This document shows positions 1,433 to 16,159 of a stretch of 64,000 bases of DNA, in pieces. Position numbers and translations under genes: made by a program. Origin of the DNA: an uncultured Gammaproteobacteria bacterium (GTDB taxonomy: Bacteria > Pseudomonadota > Gammaproteobacteria > Pseudomonadales > Pseudohongiellaceae); NCBI GenBank assembly GCA_903853385.1, contig CAINTJ010000029.1, positions 1 through 64,000 of the forward strand, written 5' to 3'. The notes beneath the pieces are model-generated. The model did no database searches. It worked only from the letters and a program-made list of their open reading frames with translations, and had not been told where the DNA came from. Each line of letters starts with the position of its first letter. Within the stretch, counting starts at the first letter, position 1.

Positions 1433-2356
1433 ATGTACGTCAAGACACGTTTGCTCTCCCTGGGTGTTTGCTGGCTGGTTGCCGGTATGTGCCAAGTCGC
1501 CGCTGCGGCCGAGCAGTTTACTGCCCGCCCATTGGCAGACAATATCCAGCTCATTACCGGACCCAGTGGCAATACACTGGCGGCAGTAGATACAGATGGC
1601 GTAATCCTCATCGAAGGAGTTCCCGCCAAGCTGGCCGGCGACTATCTGGCCTTTGTCACCAAGCTGACCGGCACCGACAAAATCAAAGCCGTGGTCAATA
1701 CCCATTGGCACGATGAATCAGTTGGCCTCAATGCCAGGCTGGCCCCCAAGGGCGTTACCATCATCGCGCATGCCAACACCAGGCAATGGTTGGCAGCCAC
1801 GATCAGAAAGCGCGGCGAAGAAATCCTGCACAGGCCCACTCCCAAAGCACAGCTGCCCAACAAGACTTTCCGTGACAAGCTGTCTGTGCCATTCCGTGGC
1901 GCCAGCATTGAACTGGGTTATACATTCCAGGCTCATACCGATGGTGATATCTATGCGTACTTCCCGCAGCAGAATGTGCTGTTCACCGGGCCGACCGTGC
2001 GTACCGACACCTGGAGTGCAGTTGATGAAAGCAGTAATGGCTACATTGGCGGCTTTGTGGATTCCTATGATCAATTGGCGAGAATCGTCAATGACAAGAC
2101 TGTCATAGTGCCGTTGTCGGGTGCCGTCATTTCCAAAGTGGAATTTGATGAACAAAAAGCCATGTATGCGCAATTGACGAAAGAGATGGTGGCACTGTTA
2201 CGAAAAAGCCGCAGTGCCGAAGAAGTAGTGGTAGCCAATCCGGCGGTCGGATTGAAGCCGCAGTGGGGTGATCCCGCCGCGTTTCTTGATCAGGGTTTCC
2301 GCAGCTTCTACGGCAATCTGCGTGATGCCCGCCATCTTGGCGGGGCGATGCCTTGA
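1433..2356 (+). CDS. Exported metallo-beta-lactamase-fold protein with altered metal site
   Basis: A 307-residue MBL-superfamily protein with an N-terminal signal peptide (MYVKTRLLSLGVCWLVAG..., cleavage near AAAAEQ), hence probably periplasmic. The ATG at 1433 is chosen over the one at 1418 because AGAGG lies 5 nt before it and the signal peptide then starts properly. The metal motif is H91-W-H93-D94-E95-S96 instead of HxHxDH. A later AHTDGD (H168, D172) is kept, but the usual C-terminal GHG ligand reads PLSGAV. Hydrolytic activity is therefore doubtful. It lies 47 bp before the DUF1592 gene on the same strand and may belong to that operon. Substrate unknown. Confidence 0.8.
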   Translation: MYVKTRLLSLGVCWLVAGMCQVAAAAEQFTARPLADNIQLITGPSGNTLAAVDTDGVILIEGVPAKLAGDYLAFVTKLTGTDKIKAVVNTHWHDESVGLNARLAPKGVTIIAHANTRQWLAATIRKRGEEILHRPTPKAQLPNKTFRDKLSVPFRGASIELGYTFQAHTDGDIYAYFPQQNVLFTGPTVRTDTWSAVDESSNGYIGGFVDSYDQLARIVNDKTVIVPLSGAVISKVEFDEQKAMYAQLTKEMVALLRKSRSAEEVVVANPAVGLKPQWGDPAAFLDQGFRSFYGNLRDARHLGGAMP

Positions 2357-2403
2357 GCAGCCAGTGCTGCTTATTGCGTTTGTGTGAGTTTTGAGAGGTA
2401 GCA

Positions 2404-4848
2404 ATGAAGACAAAAATATCAATCCCGATGCTGATCTTGGTGGCTGCAGCCATTGCCATGTCACACCCGCAAGCTGCCTGGGCAGATGCGACTTCCCATG
2501 CAGATACTGTCGCCAAATCTTTCCCTCGCATCAATGAAAGCAAACAAGGATTTGCATTTCTGGAAGAGAACTGCGGCAAATGTCATAACTCCGAAGATTG
2601 GGCTGGCAGCCTGGCCTTTGACCAGATCGCCCCCAATGAGATTGCCGATAATCCGCTGGTGTGGGAGAAAGTGATCAGCAAGCTGAATGGCCGCATGATG
2701 CCCCCGGCTGGTCAGCCACGCCCTGACAACAAGGCCACCGAGAAATTTGTTGGCTGGATCACTGAGTATCTTGATCACGCAGCCACTTCCACTGTACATG
2801 CTGGTCGGGTTGGTTTGCATCGGGTCAACCGCAAAGAATACGCCAACATCGTGCGTGATTTGTTCGGCGTGCAAGTGGATGCCAGCAGTTTGTTGCCTGC
2901 AGATTCGTCAGTGGAAGGGTTTGACAATGTGGCAGAAGCATTGCGTGCTTCGCCGTCGCTGGTAGAGCAGTCATTGATCGCGGCGCGTGTAGTGGTTTCC
3001 CAGGCAGTAGGAAATCCGGCTCCGCGTGCTGGCGGCACTACTTATTTTGCTAGCGGCAACCAGTATGCACATATTGCCGGTTTGCCGCTCGGCACACGCG
3101 GTGGCTTGCAGGTTGAGCATTATTTTCCGGCCGACGGTGAATATATTCTCAATGTCGGCAACCTGGCTGGTGCGCTGTGGGTTACCAGCCAGGAGTTCAG
3201 CCACACCTTGGTCGCCACCCTTGATGGCGTGAAATTCTTCGAGCTCGAAATAGGCGGTGGCAAGGATCTCAAGGCCATTGACCAGATCGGTGACCCGGCA
3301 GTTGACGAAATCAACAGTCATCTCAAAAACATCAAATTTGCCGCCAAAGCCGGCCCGCACAAACTGGCAGTGACATTCGTACACCGGTCATTCGCCGAGT
3401 ATGAAGGTAATCTGCAGCCGCTGACGCCGGGCACTGGCGAGAATGTCATTGCAATTACCCAGGCTGAAGTGCAGGGTCCGTTCAATCCGGCAGGGTTGAG
3501 CCAGACACCTGCACGGGAAAAAATATTCACTTGCCGTCCTGCGTCTGCTGCCCAGGAAACCCCGTGCGCGAACCAGATCATCGGTCGCATTGCCCATCTG
3601 GCCTATCGAGGGCCAGTCGACAAGAGTGACATGGATAAATTGATGTCGATTTATGCGTCGGTTCGCGCCAGCGATACCTTCGAAATGGGCGTACGGCGCG
3701 CGTTGACTGCCATCATTGCCAGTCCTAAATTCCTTTATCGCGTGGAAGCCCTGCCAGACAATGCTGCGCCAGGTTCCATTCATCCGCTGAGCAATCTGGA
3801 GCTGGCGTCACGATTGTCATTCTTCCTGTGGAGCAGTGTGCCCGATGAAGAGCTGCTGTCGCTGGCCGAGGCGGGCAAACTGGTCGATGACTCTGTGTTG
3901 TCACAGCAAGTGACGCGCATGCTGAAAGATCCGCGTGCAAAATCCCTCACCACCAACTTCACCGGCCAGTGGTTGAACCTGAGTGCGATTGATGACATCA
4001 ATCCCGATCCGGCCTTGTTCCGCGACGTTGATCGCGGCGTGCGTGGCCTGCTAAAAGAGGAGTTGACCAATCTCGCCAGCGACGTTTTCCTTAATGACAA
4101 ACCCGTGACGGATTTGTTGACGGCTGATTACACTTATCTAAATGAAAGACTGGCCTTGCATTACGGCATCAATGATGTGAAAGGTGATGAATTCCGCAAG
4201 GTGCAATTGAGCGACTCAAGCCGCTTCGGCTTGTTGGGCAAGGGAGGCATCCTGATGGCTTCGTCCTATCCTGATCGCACCTCACCAGTATTGCGGGGCA
4301 AGTATGTGCTGGAGTACATCATGGGCACGCCACCGCCGTTGCCGCCCCCGAACGTAGAAGCTTTGGCGGACAACAAACCCGGCCAGAAGCAGATGACCAT
4401 ACGTGAGCGTTTGGCCATGCATCGCAAAAACCCCAGCTGTGGGGGTTGTCATGGCTTCATTGATCCGCTTGGTTTCGCGCTGGAGGGTTTCGATGCTGTA
4501 GGTCGCAGTCGCACCGTTGATCGCTGGGTGGGCAGCAAGGTGGACACCGATGGCATATTGCCGGACGGCACCAAGATCCAGGGTATCAATGATCTGCGTA
4601 CAGCCCTCACGGCCAGACCGCGCCTGTTTGTGGAAAACCTGACCCGCAAGCTGATGCTCTATGCTGTGGGCCGCACGATAGATGCCCAGGACTTTCCGAC
4701 AGTGCGCAGCATTGTCACCCAGTCGGAAAAGAACAAATACGATTTTTATGCGCTGGTGCAGGGCATTGTGAAGAGTGACCAGTTCCGCAAGGTGCAGGCT
4801 GAAATGCCTGGCAAAGATGCCAAGAAACAACTTACCCAGACACAGTAA
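2404..4848 (+). CDS. Planctomycete-type cytochrome c / DUF1592-DUF1588 protein
   Basis: An 814-residue exported protein with a signal peptide (about residues 1-27) and the multi-domain order DUF1587, DUF1595, DUF1592, DUF1588, DUF1585. Two CxxCH haem-attachment motifs are visible: CGKCH at 57-61, followed by MMPPAG that could give the methionine ligand, and CGGCH at 679-683 within the DUF1588 signature (PSCGGCHGFIDPLG). GAGAGG before the ATG supports the start. In planctomycetes and acidobacteria such proteins are encoded next to DUF1552 proteins, as here. A periplasmic redox role is likely; the reaction is unknown. Seen: domains and haem motifs. Inferred: haem binding and export. Confidence 0.85.
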   Translation: MKTKISIPMLILVAAAIAMSHPQAAWADATSHADTVAKSFPRINESKQGFAFLEENCGKCHNSEDWAGSLAFDQIAPNEIADNPLVWEKVISKLNGRMMPPAGQPRPDNKATEKFVGWITEYLDHAATSTVHAGRVGLHRVNRKEYANIVRDLFGVQVDASSLLPADSSVEGFDNVAEALRASPSLVEQSLIAARVVVSQAVGNPAPRAGGTTYFASGNQYAHIAGLPLGTRGGLQVEHYFPADGEYILNVGNLAGALWVTSQEFSHTLVATLDGVKFFELEIGGGKDLKAIDQIGDPAVDEINSHLKNIKFAAKAGPHKLAVTFVHRSFAEYEGNLQPLTPGTGENVIAITQAEVQGPFNPAGLSQTPAREKIFTCRPASAAQETPCANQIIGRIAHLAYRGPVDKSDMDKLMSIYASVRASDTFEMGVRRALTAIIASPKFLYRVEALPDNAAPGSIHPLSNLELASRLSFFLWSSVPDEELLSLAEAGKLVDDSVLSQQVTRMLKDPRAKSLTTNFTGQWLNLSAIDDINPDPALFRDVDRGVRGLLKEELTNLASDVFLNDKPVTDLLTADYTYLNERLALHYGINDVKGDEFRKVQLSDSSRFGLLGKGGILMASSYPDRTSPVLRGKYVLEYIMGTPPPLPPPNVEALADNKPGQKQMTIRERLAMHRKNPSCGGCHGFIDPLGFALEGFDAVGRSRTVDRWVGSKVDTDGILPDGTKIQGINDLRTALTARPRLFVENLTRKLMLYAVGRTIDAQDFPTVRSIVTQSEKNKYDFYALVQGIVKSDQFRKVQAEMPGKDAKKQLTQTQ

Positions 4849-4928
4849 CGCGCAGTAAAAAACAGCTAATTTAAACAACTGATAGCCGGTCGCTCAATAA
4901 GCGACCCGATCACAACCGGAGCTTTCCC

Positions 4929-6209
4929 ATGTTTATAGCCAGGAAACATTTGTCACGTCGTCATGTGCTGCGCGGTATGGGTGCCAGTATTGCCTTGCCA
5001 TTGTTGGATGCGATGACGCCGGCGATGAGCGCCCAGGCCGCGTCCAAGTTGCGACTGGGTTTTGTATATGTTCCGCATGGGGCGGTGCAGGATAGCTGGG
5101 TTCCTGCCACCAAGGGCGAGAATTTCGAGATGAGCAAAATCCTCACTCCCCTCAAGGATTTTCGCAACTACGTGACAGTGGTAAGCGGACTGCGCAACAA
5201 ACCTGCTGAAAGCCCGGATCCACACGGTATCAAGGCCGGTTGCTGGCTGCGTTGCGTGGCCCCGGCCGGTACTGCCAATCCGCAGGATGGCATCAGTTCT
5301 GACCAGATGGCAGCGCGCGTACTCGGTGCCAACAGCCCGTTCCCGTCTCTGGAAGTATCCACCGTGGAAGGCGGCTCCGGCAGCTATGCATCAACTGTTG
5401 CCTTCAAGACGCCGACCCAGCCGCTTCCCATGGAAGGCAATCCTCGCAAACTTTATTACCGTTTGTTTGGTCAAGGTGACACTGCCGACGAAAGGGCGGC
5501 CATCACGAAGGAAACCGGCAGTTTGCTGGATTTCGTGATGAATGATGCCTCCGCGCTCAACAAGACGCTGGGCAGTTCCGACAAGGTGTTGATGGCAGAA
5601 TACCTGGACTCCATTCGTGACATCGAAATGCAGATGCAGAAAATGTCGAAGCAAGACATGTCGAGCGTGCATATCCCGGATGCGCCGGTGGGCACTCCTG
5701 GCACTTTCCCGGCTCACCTTGATCTGATGTACAGCTTAATGGCGCTGGCCTATCAGGCCGACCTCACCCGCGTCATCACGTTCATGTCTGATCGCGAGGT
5801 CAGCATGCGTACCTTTACCCATATCAATATTTCCGATGCGTTCCATCCGCTGTCGCACCATCAGAATGATGCGGCCAAGATGGATCGTCTGGCCACTGTG
5901 CAGCAGTGGTACATCTCGGCGTTCGCCAAGTTCGTTAAGAAAATGTCCGAGACCAAGGACGGCGATGGTTCGCTGCTCGACCACAGCATGCTGGTATACG
6001 GTAGCGGCATCGGCAACAGCAACCTGCACAACTGCGAACAGGTTCCGCTGGTGATCGTTGGCAAAGGCAATGGCAAGCTCAAAGGCAACCAGCATGTTGC
6101 CGCCAAGCAGGATACCCCGTTGGCCAACGTTATGCTGACCGTGCTCGACAAAGCCAATGTACCAGTCGATCACTTTGGCGACAGTACTGGCCTGTTGTCA
6201 GAAGTGTAA
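4929..6209 (+). CDS. DUF1552 family protein, Tat-exported
   Basis: A 426-residue protein whose N-terminus carries a twin-arginine signal (LSRRHVLRGMGASIALPLL), so it is probably exported folded, possibly with a cofactor. The rest matches the DUF1552 family, which accompanies DUF1592/DUF1588 proteins in many bacteria. GGAG lies 7 nt upstream of the ATG. It follows the DUF1592 gene by 80 bp and precedes the ankyrin gene by about 50 bp. The family has no established reaction. Histidines and aspartates occur in HGIKAG and around SDAFHPLSHH; whether they bind metal is a guess. Confidence 0.85.
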   Translation: MFIARKHLSRRHVLRGMGASIALPLLDAMTPAMSAQAASKLRLGFVYVPHGAVQDSWVPATKGENFEMSKILTPLKDFRNYVTVVSGLRNKPAESPDPHGIKAGCWLRCVAPAGTANPQDGISSDQMAARVLGANSPFPSLEVSTVEGGSGSYASTVAFKTPTQPLPMEGNPRKLYYRLFGQGDTADERAAITKETGSLLDFVMNDASALNKTLGSSDKVLMAEYLDSIRDIEMQMQKMSKQDMSSVHIPDAPVGTPGTFPAHLDLMYSLMALAYQADLTRVITFMSDREVSMRTFTHINISDAFHPLSHHQNDAAKMDRLATVQQWYISAFAKFVKKMSETKDGDGSLLDHSMLVYGSGIGNSNLHNCEQVPLVIVGKGNGKLKGNQHVAAKQDTPLANVMLTVLDKANVPVDHFGDSTGLLSEV

Positions 6210-6261
6210 GCCAGACCCGATTTCACCAATGTTCGCAAGCAGATTCAGGTACGCAATAATC

Positions 6262-7746
6262 ATGAAAAAACTTTTACTGGGCATGATGCTGGCCCTCAGT
6301 CTGCCGCTGCAGGCGCAAACTCTGGCTGAGTTGGTGGAAAAAAAGGATTTCACAGCTGCAGCGGCCATGATCAAGGCCGGCACCGATGTAAACCGTGCCT
6401 CGGCCGATGGCACCACGCCTTTGCATTGGGCTGCCTATTACGGCAATGCTGATTTGGTGAAAACCTTGTTGCGAGTTGAAGCCAAGCCCAACTCACATAA
6501 CAACTATGGCTCCTCGCCTATGATGGAAGCAGCCACAGTGGCCAATGTTGAAATTCTCAAGTTGCTGCTGGATGCTGGTGCCGATGTGGAATCAGCCAAT
6601 CCGGAAGGGCAGACAGCGTTGATGGCTGTTGCCCGCACCGGCAGTTTGAAGGCGGCTGAATTGTTGCTGAAAAAGGGGGCCAAAGTTGATGCCGCTGAAC
6701 ATTGGGGTGGTCAGACTGCGCTGATGTGGGCTTCTGCGAGAAAGCAGCCTGAGATGGTCAAATTCCTGATCAAGCATGGCGCGGCGGTCAACAAGCGTTC
6801 AATTGACCGCAATTGGGAACGTCGGGTGACTGCCGAGCCGCGGGTAAAAGAAATGCTGACCGGGGGCTTTACCCCGTTGTTGTTTGCGGCGCGCGAGGAG
6901 TGTCTGGAATGCGTGAAAAACCTGCTTGATGCCGGCGCTGATACTAACAAACCTGATCCTGACAACGTCTCGCCACTGATTACGGCCCTGTTGAACATGC
7001 ACTTTGATATTGCCAAGTTGCTGTTGGAGCGTGGGGCAGACGTCAACCAATGGGATTATTGGGGCCGTACTCCACTCTATGCGGCAGTGGATGTAAATAT
7101 CCTGCCAGCAAGTGCGCGTGGTGATTTGCCGCCAGTACAACAGACAACCGGTCTGGAAATTGCGCGCATGTTGCTTGGTCGTGGCGCTGAGCCTGATTAC
7201 GCGCTCAAACTTGCGCCACCGCCGCGCAACATCGTCAACGATCGTGCCGGTGACAACCCGGTGATGACCTCGGGCTCTACCCCATTGCAGCGCGCGGCTT
7301 ATGGCGGTGACGTGGATATGATCAAGCTGCTGCTTGAACACAGTGCTGATTTGACCCTGGGCAGTGTTAATGGCGTTACGCCGATGATCGCACTTACCAA
7401 TAAGGGTGGAAGTCGCAATCGCAATAAAACTGAAGCAGCAGTCATTCAAGGCCTGGAGCTGCTGATCAAGGCGGGTGCCGATATCAACCAGAAAAGCGGG
7501 GCTGGTGGCGAAACACCCTTGCACACCAGCGCGCGTTTGAACTGGCTGGAAGTGGTGAAGTACATCGCTGCTCACGGTGGCGATCTCAATGCGAAAGATG
7601 GTCGTGGCTTGATTCCGCTCGACTATGCCATTGGCAAGGCTGACAGCCAATCCTTCGGCAATTTCAACGTAGTAGGCGAGTTGCCGGAAATGGCAGCATT
7701 ACTCAAGGGTCTGATGGGTATGCCGAGTTTGCCCGCCAAGCAATGA
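6262..7746 (+). CDS. Exported ankyrin-repeat protein
   Basis: A 494-residue protein with a short signal peptide (MKKLLLGMMLALSLPLQAQ) followed by about ten ankyrin repeats, recognisable by repeated TPLHWAA-, GADVN- and LLLDAGAD-like segments. The start at 6262 gives the signal peptide; the in-frame ATG at 6157 lies inside the preceding gene and is unlikely. Ankyrin repeats bind proteins, so this may be a periplasmic scaffold for the two large exported proteins encoded upstream. It overlaps the next gene by 4 bp (ATGA), indicating translational coupling. Confidence 0.87.
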   Translation: MKKLLLGMMLALSLPLQAQTLAELVEKKDFTAAAAMIKAGTDVNRASADGTTPLHWAAYYGNADLVKTLLRVEAKPNSHNNYGSSPMMEAATVANVEILKLLLDAGADVESANPEGQTALMAVARTGSLKAAELLLKKGAKVDAAEHWGGQTALMWASARKQPEMVKFLIKHGAAVNKRSIDRNWERRVTAEPRVKEMLTGGFTPLLFAAREECLECVKNLLDAGADTNKPDPDNVSPLITALLNMHFDIAKLLLERGADVNQWDYWGRTPLYAAVDVNILPASARGDLPPVQQTTGLEIARMLLGRGAEPDYALKLAPPPRNIVNDRAGDNPVMTSGSTPLQRAAYGGDVDMIKLLLEHSADLTLGSVNGVTPMIALTNKGGSRNRNKTEAAVIQGLELLIKAGADINQKSGAGGETPLHTSARLNWLEVVKYIAAHGGDLNAKDGRGLIPLDYAIGKADSQSFGNFNVVGELPEMAALLKGLMGMPSLPAKQ

Positions 7747-8315
7747 TCCGGCAGCTGGCCGATCAAGGGTTCGCGGTGATTGACGCATTTTTGCCTGCCA
7801 CCCAGTTGCACGCACTGCAACAATCTGCGCAACGCATACTTGCCGCACAGGCGAAACCGGCAGGTATTGGACGTGGTCCCTTGCGTGAACTCGATTCCAC
7901 AGTCAGACAAGATCACATCGTCTGGCTGGAAGTTGAGGACCAATGCAGTGCCGGCTTTCTCGATTGCATGGAGCGCTTGCGCCAGCAATTGAACCAGCAG
8001 CTGTATCTCGGTTTGTTCAGCTATGAAGCGCATTTCGCCTGTTACCAACCGGGTGCCTTCTATCGCAAACATCTTGATGCATTCAAAGGCGAACGCAACA
8101 GACGTTTGTCGACCGTTTTCTATCTCAATGCAGAGTGGCAGCCACAAGCCGGCGGCGAGTTGATGATTTACCATGCCGATGGCACATCAGTAGCAGCCAG
8201 CGTCACCCCTCTGGAAAACCGGCTGGTACTGTTTATGAGTGAGGAGTTTCCTCATGAAGTGTTGCCGGCTACGCGCCAGCGCCTGAGCATAGCCGGATGG
8301 TTCCGGGGTGCCTGA
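7743..8315 (+). CDS. 2OG-Fe(II) oxygenase (prolyl 4-hydroxylase-like)
   Basis: A 190-residue cytoplasmic dioxygenase of the 2-oxoglutarate/Fe(II) superfamily. The iron triad is visible as H110-x-D112 (YRKHLDAF) and H171 (FPHEVLP), with R178 or R180 (ATRQRLSIAGW) to bind 2-oxoglutarate. It contains the GGEL segment typical of SM-20/PHD-like hydroxylases, which act on protein side chains in better-studied members. It overlaps the ankyrin gene by 4 bp, and ankyrin domains are known substrates of a related eukaryotic asparaginyl hydroxylase (FIH), but here the ankyrin protein appears to be exported. It ends 15 bp from the convergent diguanylate cyclase gene. Confidence 0.88.
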   Translation: MIRQLADQGFAVIDAFLPATQLHALQQSAQRILAAQAKPAGIGRGPLRELDSTVRQDHIVWLEVEDQCSAGFLDCMERLRQQLNQQLYLGLFSYEAHFACYQPGAFYRKHLDAFKGERNRRLSTVFYLNAEWQPQAGGELMIYHADGTSVAASVTPLENRLVLFMSEEFPHEVLPATRQRLSIAGWFRGA

Positions 8316-9733: not shown

Positions 9734-10798
9734 TCAATGCAATACTGCCACGCTTTTGATCTGTGCATAAAGTTGTGTGCCCTTTGCCAGTTGCAATACT
9801 GTGGCTGACTTGCGGGTGATACGCGCCAACAAGGTTTGCCTGCCCACTTGCAATCGTATTGTAGTCTGGTGTCCTGATAGTTCGGCCAATTCCAGCACCG
9901 ATACCGGCAGAATATTGAGGATGCTGCTCATGGACGGAGGATTGAGAGCAAGACTTACATCCTGGGCCAGTATGCGAACCCGGACCTGTTGATTGATTTG
10001 CAGGAACTCACCGCCTACAAACAATGTACTGCCATCGCATTCCAGAATGTTCAGGCCAAATTCCCGGTCATGACCAGACACGCGCGCTTCCAGAAGGGAT
10101 TCTGCATCTGAACGTTGTGCCAGACCTTGATGCAAATCGGTAAGCAGCTCGTTGGTTGGCGCCACAACGGGCCCGTGACCATGCTGAAAATAGACCAGTG
10201 CATCCGCCATTTGGCTCATCTCGGCACTGGAGTGGGTGATATAGAGCGCAGGTATGTTCAGTTCGCATAACAGCGCTTTGAACCTGGGGAGAAACCCGTG
10301 TTTGAATTCTTCATCAACAGCAGAAAACGGCTCGTCCAGCAAAAGCAGCTCGGGCTTTTGCAGCAAGGCCCGGGCGATTGCCATTTTCTGCTTTTCTCCA
10401 CCGGAGAGATGTACGGGCATGCGAGAAAGCAGGGCTGACAGGTTCAGCTGTTCGATAACGCGGGCGAAAAATTCTGGTGGAGTGTGGGCACGCCTGGCGG
10501 CAAAGCGCAGATTGCCTTCACAACTCAGATGCTGAAAAAGATTATCCTCCTGGAATACATAGCCAAGTTTGCGTTGATGAACCGGTACAAAAATATGCTG
10601 ATCCTGCCAGGTTGAGCCGTTGATACAAACCTGAGCATCTGCATGCCGGTCCAGGCCGGCAATGGCCCGGAGCAGGCTGGTTTTGCCGGTACCGGATGCG
10701 CCGAACAATACCGAAATACCGTTACCTGACAAATCGAGCGCGACCGGCATCCGGAAGCTGCCACGGCTGATGGTGAGTTTGATCTGCAGACTGTTCAT
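9734..10798 (-). CDS. modC: Molybdate ABC transporter ATP-binding protein
   Basis: A 354-residue ATPase of the molybdate importer. Visible motifs are Walker A (GASGTGKTSL), the ABC signature (LSGGEKQKMAIARAL) and Walker B (LLLLDEPFSAVDEE). The C-terminal third is the TOBE/molybdate-binding domain typical of ModC and absent from shorter ABC ATPases. Its start overlaps the end of modB by 4 bp, so the two are translationally coupled. It energises uptake by ModB with ModA at the inner membrane. Confidence 0.95.
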   Translation of the reverse strand: MNSLQIKLTISRGSFRMPVALDLSGNGISVLFGASGTGKTSLLRAIAGLDRHADAQVCINGSTWQDQHIFVPVHQRKLGYVFQEDNLFQHLSCEGNLRFAARRAHTPPEFFARVIEQLNLSALLSRMPVHLSGGEKQKMAIARALLQKPELLLLDEPFSAVDEEFKHGFLPRFKALLCELNIPALYITHSSAEMSQMADALVYFQHGHGPVVAPTNELLTDLHQGLAQRSDAESLLEARVSGHDREFGLNILECDGSTLFVGGEFLQINQQVRVRILAQDVSLALNPPSMSSILNILPVSVLELAELSGHQTTIRLQVGRQTLLARITRKSATVLQLAKGTQLYAQIKSVAVLH

Positions 10799-11478
10799 AG
10801 CCGCACCAACCGCAGCCGGCCGCGTAAACTATAGACAGCCAGCAACAGGCAAAATGACAATAACAACATGCCACCGGCCAGCATGTGGGCTTGTGTATAT
10901 TCAAGCCTTTCTACATGGTCATAGATGGCTATCGACAACACGCGGGTTTCACCAGGGATATTGCCACCCAGCATAAGCACCACACCAAACTCGCCAAGGG
11001 TATGGGCAAAGCCAAGCATGGCCGCCGTGATGTAACCTGCATGAGCCATGGGAATTACCACGCTGATAAAAGTGTCCAGCGGCCCGGACCGCAAGGTGGC
11101 AGCAATTTCCAGTGGGCGTTTGCCGATGGTCTGGAACGTGTCCTGCAAGGGCTGCACAACGAAAGGCAGAGAATAAACTACAGAACCAAACAGCAGTCCT
11201 CCAAAGGTGAAGGCGAGTGGTTCGCCGCCGAACGTCTGGATCAAGGAGCCGAGCCAGCCGTGCGGACCCATGCTCTGCAGCAAATAAAACCCCAGCACTG
11301 TTGGTGGCAGCACAATCGGTAATGCGATTAATGTTTCCAGAATATAGCGGAAGCGCCAGCGGGAATGTGCCAGCCACCAGGCCAGTGGCGTGCCGATCAG
11401 CAACAGGATGCCGGTGGTAAGTGCTGCCAGTTGCAAGGTGAGCCACAGTGCGGTGAAGTCGGCAGGAGTCAGCATCAC
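10795..11478 (-). CDS. modB: Molybdate ABC transporter permease
   Basis: A 227-residue inner-membrane permease with about five to six hydrophobic segments and the EAA-type loop contacting the ATPase (RSGPLDTFISVVIPMAHAG followed by AHTLGEFG). Length and sequence fit ModB. It overlaps modA by 4 bp upstream and modC by 4 bp downstream, so the three form a tight modABC operon. Confidence 0.95.
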   Translation of the reverse strand: MMLTPADFTALWLTLQLAALTTGILLLIGTPLAWWLAHSRWRFRYILETLIALPIVLPPTVLGFYLLQSMGPHGWLGSLIQTFGGEPLAFTFGGLLFGSVVYSLPFVVQPLQDTFQTIGKRPLEIAATLRSGPLDTFISVVIPMAHAGYITAAMLGFAHTLGEFGVVLMLGGNIPGETRVLSIAIYDHVERLEYTQAHMLAGGMLLLSFCLLLAVYSLRGRLRLVRL

Positions 11479-12230
11479 GGCAGTGCATAGCCTGCATCTG
11501 CAATCGTGGCTCGGGCAGCGGCAGATTGCATGAAAGTCATGAAGGCCCGTGCGACAGCGCTGTCTTTCAGGATGACTGCGTCTTGTGTAATCGGACTATG
11601 CAGTTTAGCGGGGACCAGCCAGGGCGTACCTCTTTTTTGTACTGGTAATGCCAACCATTGTGCTTTTGCTATGAAACCCAGTTCTGCATTGCCGCTGTCG
11701 ATGAACTGCAAGGTCTGCGCTATGTTTTCGCCTGTCACCAGTTTCTTTTGCAGTTTTTCCCACAATTGCAGTGTTTCCAGCACTTGTTGGGCAGCCGCTC
11801 CATAAGGGGCCAGTTTGGGATTGGCAATGGCCAAATGGCGGAAATCTGCAGAAGCCAGCGTGGCCTGTGCATGGGTGCCGAGGTCAAGCATGGCGCTCCA
11901 AAGTACAAGTTGCCCCAGCGCGTAGGTATAGGCGGTACCTGCTACCGCTTTCTTCTCTGCGACCAGTTGCATGGGTTTTTCACTGTCGGCAGCAAAGAAC
12001 AGGTCGAACGGTGCGCCACTACTGATCTGGGCATAGAGCTTGCCGGTGGCGCCGCCACTCAACACAGCCGTGTGGCCGCTGGCCACTTTAAAATCAGCAG
12101 CGAGCTGTTCCAGCACCGGCGCAAAGTTGCTGGCGACTGCAATGCGCAGCTCTTCAGCTTGCGATGTTGGCAAGCATAACCATCCTGAGGCCAACAACAC
12201 CCAGCGCAGTTTGTTGAGCGCCAATTTCAT
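11475..12230 (-). CDS. modA: Molybdate-binding periplasmic protein
   Basis: A 251-residue periplasmic binding protein with a signal peptide (about residues 1-25). The mature start (ELRIAVASNFAPVLEQLA) and the LSGGATGKLYAQI and APFDLFFAADSEKP segments are typical of ModA, whose serines and backbone amides bind the oxyanion. It delivers molybdate or tungstate to ModBC. The gene starts 34 bp after ligJ on the same strand, leaving little room for a separate promoter, so co-transcription with ligJ is likely. No clear ModE-type operator was seen. Confidence 0.94.
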   Translation of the reverse strand: MKLALNKLRWVLLASGWLCLPTSQAEELRIAVASNFAPVLEQLAADFKVASGHTAVLSGGATGKLYAQISSGAPFDLFFAADSEKPMQLVAEKKAVAGTAYTYALGQLVLWSAMLDLGTHAQATLASADFRHLAIANPKLAPYGAAAQQVLETLQLWEKLQKKLVTGENIAQTLQFIDSGNAELGFIAKAQWLALPVQKRGTPWLVPAKLHSPITQDAVILKDSAVARAFMTFMQSAAARATIADAGYALP

Positions 12231-12264
12231 CGGGATCTTCCTGCGCCAGGCGACAAGTACAAGA

Positions 12265-13272
12265 TCAAAGCTTCATACGACTGAACACCTTGCGGATGTT
12301 GTGTTCAAAAATGTTGGCTTTGTCCTGCTCGCTGATGCGCGCGTTGTCAATGTAGCGTTTGGTGTCATCGAAGTAATAGCCCGTCTCCGGATCTATCCCC
12401 TGCACAGCACCGATCATTTCAGAAGCAAACAGGATGTTTTTGTTGTCGATTACATCCAGCAACAGGTCAATGCCGCGCTGATGGTACACACAGGTGTCGA
12501 AATAGATGTTTTTCATCACCAGCTCTTTGAGGTTGGGCAGTTTCATCATGTCGGCGAGACCACGGAATCGACCCCAGTGATAAGGCACTGCTCCACCGCC
12601 GTGCGGGATGATGAATTTGATGGTCGGGAAATCCTGGCACACAGTGCTTTGCATCAGTTGCATAAAAGCAGTGGTATCGGCACTCAGGTAGTACGAGCCG
12701 GTGGCGTGGAAGGCCGGGTTGCAGCAACCGCTGACGTGGATCATGGCCGGCACATCCAGTTCGACCATTTTTTCATAGATCGGATACCAGTACTTGTCGC
12801 CGAGCGGGGGCGAGGTCCAATGACCGCCAGAAGGATCCAGGTTGAGGTTGCACACCACGAACCCGAATTCCAGCACGCAACGTTCCAGCTCAGCGACTGA
12901 AGTCTGCAGATCGGTACCCGGTGATTGTGGCAGGGCACAGCCGCCAATGAAATTTTTCGGATACAGCTGGGTCACTCGATAGATCAGTTCATTGGTATGT
13001 TCGGTCCAGTATTTGCTGGTGTGAGCATTGCCGATATGGTGTTCCATCCAGCTGGCACGCGGGGAAAAAATGGTGGCATCGGTGCCGCGCTCTCGTTGCA
13101 ACTTCAGCTGGCCTTTCTCCAGGGTTTCGCGAATCTGGTCATCGGAGATGTTGATGATGCCTTTCTCACCCAGCTGTTTGGGGTCTTTTTTGAGTTCTGC
13201 TTTCTGTTTATTCCGATAGACGCCAAGGGCGTCTGGGGCGGTGGTGTAATGGCCGTGGCAATCGATGATCAT
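12265..13272 (-). CDS. ligJ: 4-oxalomesaconate hydratase (amidohydrolase superfamily)
   Basis: A 335-residue amidohydrolase-superfamily protein closely resembling LigJ, which hydrates 4-oxalomesaconate in the protocatechuate 4,5-cleavage pathway. Metal and catalytic residues known from LigJ are present one position later: H6 and H8 (DCHGHYT), H179 (MIHVSG), H224 (PHGGGAVPYHWGRF) and E285 (LFASEM). Glutamate in place of the usual aspartate is a LigJ hallmark. No other lig, pra or pca genes are in the window, so its pathway partners, if any, are elsewhere. It is the first gene before modABC and is divergent from the FimV-like gene. Confidence 0.85.
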   Translation of the reverse strand: MIIDCHGHYTTAPDALGVYRNKQKAELKKDPKQLGEKGIINISDDQIRETLEKGQLKLQRERGTDATIFSPRASWMEHHIGNAHTSKYWTEHTNELIYRVTQLYPKNFIGGCALPQSPGTDLQTSVAELERCVLEFGFVVCNLNLDPSGGHWTSPPLGDKYWYPIYEKMVELDVPAMIHVSGCCNPAFHATGSYYLSADTTAFMQLMQSTVCQDFPTIKFIIPHGGGAVPYHWGRFRGLADMMKLPNLKELVMKNIYFDTCVYHQRGIDLLLDVIDNKNILFASEMIGAVQGIDPETGYYFDDTKRYIDNARISEQDKANIFEHNIRKVFSRMKL

Positions 13273-15148: not shown

Positions 15149-16159
15149 ATGAACTCAACAGTCCTGCCATCCACCAACCTGATTGACAAATACGGCCGTC
15201 ATATTGACTACGTGCGTTTGTCGGTTACCGACCGCTGTGACTTCCGGTGTGTGTACTGCATGTCGGAGAAGATGACCTTTCTGCCTCGCAATCAGGTTTT
15301 GTCACTGGAAGAAATATTCAAAGTGGCGCAGGCCTTCAGTCAGCTGGGTGTTCGCAAGATAAGACTTACCGGAGGTGAGCCCTTGGTGCGCAGTAACATC
15401 CTGTCGTTGGTGCAAAATATTGGTTTGTTGCCAAACCTGGATGAGTTGCTGATTACTACCAATGCTTCCCATCTTGAAGAGATGGCGGGGGCGCTCAAGG
15501 CGGCCGGGGTCACCCGTATCAATATCAGTCTTGATTCCCTCAATGCCGCCACCTTCAAAGAGATGACTCGCACCGGTGATCTAGGCCAGGTGCTGCGAGG
15601 AATTGAAGCGGCCAAGGCGCAGAATTTCAAAGGGTTGCGATTGAATGCGGTTATTCTCAAGGGCCGCAACGACCATGAGATCCTGGATTTGCTGCACTAT
15701 GCGATGCAGATGAAAATCAACATAGCCTTTATCGAAGAAATGCCGCTGGGAGACGTGTCAGACCATGACCGGTTGGAAACCAGTTGCAGTAATGACGATG
15801 TGCGTCGCGTCATTGAAGCAGTCCACCCATTGACTGAGCTGTCTATGCAAACGGCCGGGCCGTCCCGTTATTTCAGTGTTGCCGGCAGCGAGACCAGGCT
15901 GGGTTTCATTTCGCCGGTTTCGCATAACTTTTGTGAAAGCTGCAACCGGGTCAGGGTGACGGTTGAGGGGCGTTTGTTGCTGTGCCTCGGCAACGAGCAC
16001 TCGGTGGATCTGCGGACAATCCTGCGTGACCATCCCGATGATGGTCTGCTGCTCCAGCAAACTATACGAAATGCCATGGATATCAAGCCATTGCGGCATT
16101 ATTTTTATGAAAAGGATGCACCACAAGTGGTGCGTTTCATGAATATGACCGGCGGCTAG
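15149..16159 (+). CDS. moaA: GTP 3',8-cyclase (molybdopterin synthesis)
   Basis: A 336-residue radical SAM enzyme that converts GTP to (8S)-3',8-cyclo-7,8-dihydroguanosine 5'-triphosphate, the first step of molybdenum cofactor synthesis. Both 4Fe-4S sites are visible: C30-x3-C34-x2-C37 for SAM and C262-x2-C265-x13-C279 for GTP binding. The C-terminus ends in the conserved GG (MNMTGG). moaB follows after about 40 bp. No moco riboswitch fits in the 115-bp upstream gap. Confidence 0.97.
   Translation: MNSTVLPSTNLIDKYGRHIDYVRLSVTDRCDFRCVYCMSEKMTFLPRNQVLSLEEIFKVAQAFSQLGVRKIRLTGGEPLVRSNILSLVQNIGLLPNLDELLITTNASHLEEMAGALKAAGVTRINISLDSLNAATFKEMTRTGDLGQVLRGIEAAKAQNFKGLRLNAVILKGRNDHEILDLLHYAMQMKINIAFIEEMPLGDVSDHDRLETSCSNDDVRRVIEAVHPLTELSMQTAGPSRYFSVAGSETRLGFISPVSHNFCESCNRVRVTVEGRLLLCLGNEHSVDLRTILRDHPDDGLLLQQTIRNAMDIKPLRHYFYEKDAPQVVRFMNMTGG

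Follow-up and report, generated by a model that had tools for sequence, protein, structure and literature searches.

Conserved DUF1592-DUF1552 gene modules with ankyrin and metallo-beta-lactamase-fold companions in an uncultured gammaproteobacterium, and their relationship to Cbp2D

Do five closely spaced genes on one strand form one unit, and what might such a unit do? This question is raised by positions 1433-8315 of a 64,000-nucleotide stretch of DNA (the window) from an uncultured gammaproteobacterium of the family Pseudohongiellaceae (assembly GCA_903853385.1, contig CAINTJ010000029.1, positions 1 to 64,000). The five genes, all on the plus strand, encode a metallo-beta-lactamase (MBL)-fold protein, a DUF1592-type two-haem protein, a DUF1552 protein, an ankyrin-repeat (ANK) protein and a 2-oxoglutarate (2OG)-Fe(II) oxygenase. 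They are separated by gaps of 47, 80 and 52 bp and then a 4-bp overlap between the ANK and 2OG genes. A sequence-only reading had taken them as apparently one operon, suggestive of an envelope redox complex with no described function. The five genes and the domains assigned to them are real, but the five-gene unit is not: MBL, DUF1592, DUF1552 and ANK constitute a conserved, repeated module, and the 2OG gene does not recur with them. The module and its features are as follows.

1433-2356 (alternative start 1418), plus strand: MBL-fold protein (metallo-beta-lactamase superfamily), Pfam Lactamase_B; Sec-type signal by eye
2404-4848, plus strand: DUF1592-type two-haem protein, Pfam DUF1587-DUF1595-DUF1592-DUF1588-DUF1585 and a weak PSCyt1 match
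2572-2586, plus strand: first haem-attachment motif CGKCH, residues 57-61 of the DUF1592 protein; C57, C60 and H61 invariant (n=89)
3019-3492, plus strand: jelly-roll insert, residues 206-363 of the DUF1592 protein; borderline fold match to CBM35/36/6
4438-4452, plus strand: second haem-attachment motif CGGCH, in DUF1588, residues 679-683; C679, C682 and H683 invariant (n=89)
4929-6209, plus strand: DUF1552 (HXXSHH) protein with a start of the twin-arginine translocation (Tat) type, assigned by Pfam; alkaline phosphatase/sulfatase-like predicted fold; H99, H306, H310 and H367 conserved
4956-4961, plus strand: twin arginine R10-R11 of the Tat-type signal of DUF1552; invariant in 108 sequences
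5844-5861, plus strand: HPLSHH motif, residues 306-311 of DUF1552; candidate metal ligands
6262-7746, plus strand: ANK protein, Pfam ankyrin repeats; signal peptide by eye

Export signals were assessed by eye, as was the ANK start, which likely lies at 6262 and not at 6157, where a longer open reading frame (ORF) begins. On this basis the earlier view was supported as far as it concerned an exported set in which a cytochrome and an ankyrin partner are joined by a Tat protein, itself a possible metal carrier. Promoter-like matches (6 versus 4.9 in shuffled sequences) and terminator-like matches (9 versus 6.8) were within the spread of the shuffles; between MBL and DUF1592 there is one weak site resembling a terminator.

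Copies of the module within the genome

A total of 19 DUF1552 matches and 23 DUF1588 matches were detected in the genome (2.95 Mb, 143 contigs). Among the latter, 19 scored above 100 bits, one was truncated where its contig stops, and the other three were weak. The protein on the weak-match contig C9 showed sub-threshold PSCyt3 and PSD1 matches with an adjoining DUF1501, and represents another type. Fourteen of the 19 DUF1552 genes were assessable when those near contig ends were set aside. Counting all 19, a DUF1592 neighbour was found for 18, the 19th gene starting a contig, and a same-strand ankyrin gene also clustered with 18. The window-type MBL was found beside seven and the 2OG gene beside one. 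The position of MBL shifted between upstream, downstream and between DUF1552 and ANK; the gene is therefore retained although its location moves.

In three of the 19 modules a small cytochrome-like gene follows DUF1552 directly (L030, 6342-6917; L038, 8806-9450; L043, 3202-3756), and in L030 and L038 it sits between DUF1552 and ANK. The encoded proteins gave weak, sub-threshold Pfam matches to Dehyd-heme_bind or CBB3. Pyrroloquinoline quinone (PQQ) dehydrogenases form another large paralogue family in this genome, with about 25 genes by hand count (40 matches, many of them split). They were rejected as a module partner, about five genes lying within 10 kb of a module versus 3-4 expected in a rough hand estimate. 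A partnerless extra ankyrin gene was located near a contig end (L182), and near module L029 there is a gene of the MBL superfamily that differs in kind from the window MBL.

Occurrence of the module in other genomes

Named genomes were scanned with profiles built from the paralogues of this genome, and at least 80 loci were found elsewhere, mainly in Gammaproteobacteria and Acidobacteriota metagenome-assembled genomes (MAGs). The set comprised the best 80 loci by similarity to the query, and the ANK and MBL rates obtained thus apply to near relatives. Among the 86 DUF1552 genes in these loci, 34 had 5 kb on both sides and could be assessed; neighbours were counted on either strand, within 4.5 kb for DUF1592 and within 5 kb for ANK and MBL. 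DUF1592 was present in 32 of the 34 loci, ANK in 33 (32 with a same-strand copy) and MBL in 21, and all four genes occurred together in 19. The order MBL-DUF1592-DUF1552-ANK, as in the window, was the commonest (11/34). A 2OG gene was found beside none of the 34. Two modules on opposite strands inside one locus were observed in L067, L069, L075 and L095. A contig titled as a Klebsiella pneumoniae MAG (CAMDML010000032.1, L104) also bears the module; the label is probably wrong.

DUF1552 was detected in 70 of the 99 genomes of the window's family. Eleven genomes of the genus carried 10-20 copies each, and 3 of 150 genomes in a sample of the phylum were positive, both counts including the genome studied here. 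Eighteen family loci from 18 other genomes were chosen by hand, one per genome, from the high-scoring end of the matches listed, weaker DUF1552 matches (E about 1e-40) being left out of the locus inspection. All 18 contained ANK and one contained MBL. In two loci outside the family the DUF1592/DUF1552 pair was found with neither ANK nor MBL.

A set of 22 loci containing a DUF1592 gene was picked by hand, among many more matches listed, to represent other families of the order. DUF1552 was located beside DUF1592 in all 22. ANK was present in exactly six, namely those in which DUF1592 matched the window profile end to end, and in none of the remaining 16; MBL was present in none of the 22. In all six ankyrin-type loci (L167, L173, L176-L179, from five Cellvibrio-family genomes and the kin of the C. 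japonicus-type one) a small cytochrome c'-like gene with one CxxCH follows, and in five of them a b561-like gene. Cytochrome c' was checked by Pfam in L167 and L173 and b561 in L173, the others being assigned by eye.

The neighbourhood of DUF1552, where a check for repeated linkage to ankyrin and 2OG-oxygenase genes had been suggested, thus showed the former and not the latter in the loci examined. Among near relatives the DUF1592/DUF1552 pair is usually accompanied by ANK and MBL, whereas distant pairs stand without ANK in 16 of 22 loci and without MBL in all 22. ANK and MBL thus accompany this subfamily of DUF1592/DUF1552 in a clade-specific manner.

Co-inheritance of the module genes

Distance correlations were calculated for the 87 of 124 modules in which all three of DUF1552, DUF1592 and ANK were near full length. 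The values were 0.82 for DUF1552-DUF1592, 0.78 for DUF1552-ANK and 0.72 for DUF1592-ANK, and the maximum after permutation was 0.18. The corresponding partial correlations were 0.59, 0.47 and 0.24. These would make DUF1552 the hub of the module, a pattern not echoed within the genome's own 16 modules.

A FastTree phylogeny was constructed from 146 DUF1552 proteins with at least 75% profile coverage, which left out most of the Cbp2D-linked ones; the ANK state was scored in 129 of these and the MBL state in 103. The presence of ANK (122/129) changed twice on the tree, compared with a mean of 6.9 and a minimum of 5 after shuffling. The presence of MBL (55/103) also changed twice, compared with a mean of 34 and a minimum of 26. 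The recurrence of MBL, DUF1592, DUF1552 and ANK is far beyond chance, and the module evolves as a unit, with ANK as its third core component.

Domains and predicted folds of the DUF1592 and DUF1552 proteins

The DUF1592 protein contains DUF1587, DUF1595, DUF1592, DUF1588 and DUF1585 in this order, all above the curated Pfam cut-offs. Its layout is a cytochrome c-like domain, DUF1587, a jelly-roll insert and then DUF1595-DUF1592-DUF1588-DUF1585. Exactly two CxxCH motifs were found in 100 of 101 homologues. Both motifs were invariant in 89 aligned sequences together with Met99, which is likely an axial haem ligand. In the structure model (pLDDT 91.3), the jelly roll (residues 206-363) resembles the carbohydrate-binding modules (CBMs) CBM35/36/6, with a VIA Z of 8.0 and root-mean-square deviations (rmsd) of 3.2-3.6 over 104-111 residues in the top three rows. 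The VIA rows for this model mostly cover the jelly roll, and the haem domains fall outside that fold comparison. A Foldseek search with the model returned no match under 1e-3. When the PDB was searched by sequence, neither DUF1592 nor DUF1552 found a convincing relative (best E 0.5 and 0.9), and the best E for the N-terminal haem part of DUF1592 was 0.22.

The DUF1552 protein matched its Pfam family with 279.6 bits (cut-off 30) and carries the HxxSHH motif at residues 306-311. Its model (pLDDT 88.6) showed a predicted sulfatase/nucleotide pyrophosphatase fold (VIA Z 16.7 over about 245 residues, rmsd 3.6-3.8; Foldseek E 3.1e-6). R10, R11, H99, H306, H310 and H367 were invariant across 108 DUF1552 sequences. 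Among 11 chosen sequences that included Cbp2D-linked ones, H306 and H310 were present in all and H99 and H367 in ten; position 50, after strand 1, varied (H, G, D, N, C). The full HxxSHH motif occurred in 128 of 145 DUF1552 proteins and was mostly missing from Cbp2D-linked and out-of-family ones. The conserved histidines are candidate metal ligands.

Relationship of the module to Cbp2D

Pfam DUF1587 is annotated in Cbp2D (PMC8981238). The X132 domain has been described as carrying one CxxCH and having no characterised homologue known to its authors, and TERTU_2913 was reported to be without CBMs (PMC10916295). Both cbp2D and cbp2E are needed for growth of Cellvibrio japonicus on insoluble cellulose, and the authors of that study have proposed direct cutting through a novel mechanism (PMC12542752). 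A Cellvibrio protein with CBM2 was annotated as DUF1592 in a study of a lignocellulose community (PMC6004670).

One genome in our set (G480) we take for that of C. japonicus. It encodes a CBM2-YceI protein of 350 aa from the chosen ATG (368 aa from the first possible start), and a CBM2-YceI-cytochrome-DUF1587-1595-1592-1588 protein of 1122 aa; their lengths fit those published for Cbp2E and Cbp2D, respectively. A DUF1552 gene lies 47 bp after the cbp2D-like gene. At a separate place from cbp2D the same genome carries an ankyrin-type module, and genes for cytochrome c' and b561 come next to it downstream. Another genome (G432) encodes a 1413-aa protein with stretches identical or near-identical to the crystallised domains 8q2a and 8q1v and a C-terminal DUF1587-1595-1592-1588 region; judging by these stretches, we take it for TERTU_2913.

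The profile of the window-family DUF1592 matched the Cbp2D-like protein with an E of 1.9e-55. By this match and by the shared Pfam block, the DUF1592 protein is homologous to the X183-X132 half of Cbp2D, and its conserved block is CAZy X132. The earlier description of the cluster as having no described function should be amended, since the block corresponds to the C-terminal X132 domain of Cbp2D, a protein with a cellulose-growth phenotype. Any of the six DUF numbers is mentioned in five papers of the literature searched, and among the papers listed none was found that joins DUF1552 with ankyrin or X132.

Ankyrin and MBL proteins

None of 105 ankyrin proteins contained a CxxCH motif. The window MBL matched subclass B1 metallo-beta-lactamase with 60.4 bits, below the curated cut-off of 200, and has HWHDE in place of the HxHxDH zinc motif, which was present in one of seven paralogues. 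On these features it is placed outside subclass B1. It is a member of an MBL subfamily that goes with one clade of modules.

Proposed function and alternatives

A two-haem protein and a histidine-rich protein of predicted sulfatase fold are encoded together in nearly all loci examined, with cytochrome c' and b561 genes clustered in relatives, which points most readily to a redox enzyme whose targets are extracytoplasmic polymers. We tentatively propose, as a reading that falls a little short of probable, that the products of genes 1-4 are exported and form a metalloenzyme complex that is supplied with electrons and attacks polymers of the carbohydrate type. DUF1552, exported through Tat, would have a sulfatase fold in which histidines now make up the metal site, and would likely be the catalytic subunit. 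The DUF1592 protein, as a two-haem c-type cytochrome, would pass electrons to or from DUF1552 and may hold the substrate through its carbohydrate-binding-like jelly roll. ANK could be an exported scaffold or maturation partner docking on the DUF1592/DUF1552 pair, and MBL an accessory hydrolase in one module clade. Electrons may be exchanged with the quinone pool in either direction, through cytochrome b561 and cytochrome c' in the relatives that cluster these genes. The target would most likely be a polysaccharide or a polysaccharide-linked polymer, with the approximately 19 paralogues tuned to different linkages.

Several observations weigh against this proposal. The jelly-roll match is borderline (Z 8.0), and the window DUF1592 protein is without CBM2. 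Module L043 (1/19) has no ankyrin gene, nor has L059 elsewhere, and ANK lies on the opposite strand in 3 of the 18 chosen family loci. Within the genome's own 16 modules the partial correlations are alike (0.43, 0.45 and 0.39). The Teredinibacter proteins were judged unlikely to feed lytic polysaccharide monooxygenases (LPMOs) (PMC10916295), and the literature excerpts gave no biochemistry for DUF1552 or X132. PQQ dehydrogenases show no clear enrichment near modules, and the flanks of single modules in this genome point partly to aromatic compounds (LigB, RPE65).

These flanks lead to the alternative that the module oxidises or demethylates plant aromatics such as lignin fragments or polyphenols in the envelope, instead of polysaccharides. 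It would account for the neighbours of single modules, which include a LigB-type dioxygenase (L040), an RPE65-type oxygenase (L044) and PQQ dehydrogenases, and for AAHS-like transporters seen by eye in seven loci. However, these neighbours vary from copy to copy, PQQ genes are not clearly enriched by hand estimate, and the sole relative found with a phenotype acts on cellulose; we regard this alternative as unlikely. To the same degree we doubt a purely electron-transferring or respiratory device, serving extracellular acceptors or enzymes of the LPMO type, which itself would catalyse nothing and in which DUF1552 would have a structural or metal-handling role. The two haem motifs would suit such a device, as would the genes resembling cytochrome c' and b561 that follow modules of the ankyrin type and the DUF3570 genes at L037 (with redoxin and DUF4266) and L160 (with ApbE). 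Yet DUF1552 accompanies DUF1592 in 22 of the 22 chosen outside loci and keeps histidines on an enzyme fold, and 19 diverged copies would be hard to square with a generic wire. Still less probable is an oxidative-stress system in which ANK loads haem into the cytochrome or protects it, along the lines suggested for AnkB-KatB and Cj1386-KatA. An ankyrin protein with an export signal does adjoin a haem protein here, and catalase activity in Pseudomonas aeruginosa and Campylobacter jejuni is reported to depend on ankyrin proteins (PMC7567364). No catalase or peroxidase family was found in the module by Pfam, however, and its copy number and clade structure appear unlike those of stress genes. A chaperone role of ANK as such is compatible with the proposed polymer-acting metalloenzyme.

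The proposal of an electron-fed metalloenzyme may be extended further, in a form that we consider rather doubtful. Secreted enzymes that cleave polymers oxidatively would then include a new class with DUF1552 as its catalytic subunit, a sulfatase fold whose metal site consists of histidines throughout and which receives its wiring from a two-haem X132 protein. In cellulose degradation DUF1552 would be the partner that Cbp2D has so far lacked. The form with ankyrin and MBL would be the expanded one, comparable to a polysaccharide-utilisation system but based on redox chemistry.

The 2OG oxygenase gene and other flanking genes

The fifth gene of the locus is a neighbour of the module.

7743-8315, plus strand: 2OG-Fe(II) oxygenase, Pfam 2OG-FeII_Oxy_3, relative of PDB 4iw3/4j25; not a member of the module

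The nearest solved relative of the 2OG protein is PDB 4iw3/4j25 (E 5.6e-48, residues 3-188). This is the prolyl hydroxylase PPHD of Pseudomonas putida, which acts on EF-Tu (PMC6235002). The window protein is homologous to PPHD over nearly its full length. The sequence-only reading had suggested that this oxygenase, cytoplasmic in appearance, could modify one of its partners before export. A five-gene operon of this kind, with a module protein hydroxylated before export, could draw on the 4-bp overlap and on the position of the 2OG gene behind the orthologous ankyrin gene in 7 of the 8 genus genomes that have it (8 of 11 genomes of the genus, counts including the genome studied here). But the same synteny extends to the next genes, which are modABC-, amidohydrolase- and moaA-like by eye (window 9734-13272 and 15149-16159). 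In addition, genome G189 (81% complete, with a contig spanning the junction) has kept the 2OG gene at the locus, with the module absent. The 2OG gene was found beside none of the other modules examined (1/19 and 0/34 linkage), and its nearest solved relative targets EF-Tu. The five-gene unit was rejected on these grounds, and we find pre-export hydroxylation of a module protein hardly credible. The gene is a neighbour of the EF-Tu-hydroxylase type and unrelated to the module, to which only synteny links it.

Other genes also recurred in the flanks of modules. Proteins of a 'GKPNLNGVW/PDLQGVW' type were encoded by 24 genes in 18 loci and had no Pfam match. DUF6152 was another recurrent flanking family; examples of flanks are L075 5199-6038, L140 4339-5379 and L123 14189-14626. 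No function was found for DUF6152 or the 'PDLQGVW' proteins on inspection. In L152 and L154 (genomes G157 and G163) the orthologous module is preceded by a major facilitator superfamily gene and by genes for the maturation of cytochrome c, which Pfam assigns to the CcmI/CycH type in L152 and to CcmF in L154. Similar ORFs were seen by eye upstream in L155-L157; the window contig begins too late to include them. DUF3570 was identified by Pfam beside L037 (14049-15966, with redoxin and DUF4266) and L160 (802-3647, with ApbE); the L160 redoxin and genes of the same set in L164 (7662-10543) were assigned by eye. Genes of the DUF3570/redoxin/DUF4266/ApbE type belong to a flavin electron-transfer set (PMC8238504).

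Comparison with known systems

The ankyrin proteins AnkB, encoded beside KatB, and Cj1386, associated with KatA, resemble the module in tying an ankyrin protein to a haem protein. Their partner is a catalase, unlike that of the module. The fold predicted for DUF1552 is shared with members of the alkaline phosphatase superfamily, namely sulfatases and nucleotide pyrophosphatases (Z up to 16.7). Compared with these enzymes, DUF1552 shows about 10% identity and lacks a conserved Asp at position 50, and its most conserved polar residues are mainly histidines.

The planctomycete-specific cytochrome genes (PSCyt3 plus PSD) of Verrucomicrobia and Planctomycetes carry the same Pfam block names as the window DUF1592. 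They differ in belonging to other phyla, and the excerpt of PMC5615132 mentions no ankyrin or MBL partner for them. PSCyt3 genes were reported usually to adjoin one family of unknown genes (PMC5615132), which we infer to be DUF1552. The 41 copies reported in Rhodopirellula baltica are PSD1/PSC2, another type.

The CAZy X183-X132 proteins, Cbp2D/Cbp2E of C. japonicus and TERTU_2913/TERTU_3803 of Teredinibacter turnerae, share with the module a cytochrome c domain followed by DUF1587-1595-1592-1588 with CxxCH, and an adjoining DUF1552 gene. They differ from the module in their CBM2/CBM10, YceI, GSDH or Cip1-like parts and in having no adjoining ANK or MBL that we could find. The Cbp2D-like proteins in L172, L174 and L175 skip the jelly-roll stretch of the profile and carry CBM2 (checked by Pfam in L172), whereas the window DUF1592 protein has no CBM2 or CBM10 by Pfam. 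Sequence evidence thereby ties together three puzzles: the planctomycete-specific cytochrome genes (PMC5615132), the X132 domain of Cbp2D (PMC10916295) and the ankyrin module. The core genes DUF1592 and DUF1552 are related to Cbp2D and its adjoining gene, and the repeated module therefore becomes directly testable. The Cbp2D form and the form with ankyrin occur side by side in the genome taken for C. japonicus, a species for which mutants of cbp2D and cbp2E have been published; the function of these proteins can thus be tested there by single-gene deletions.

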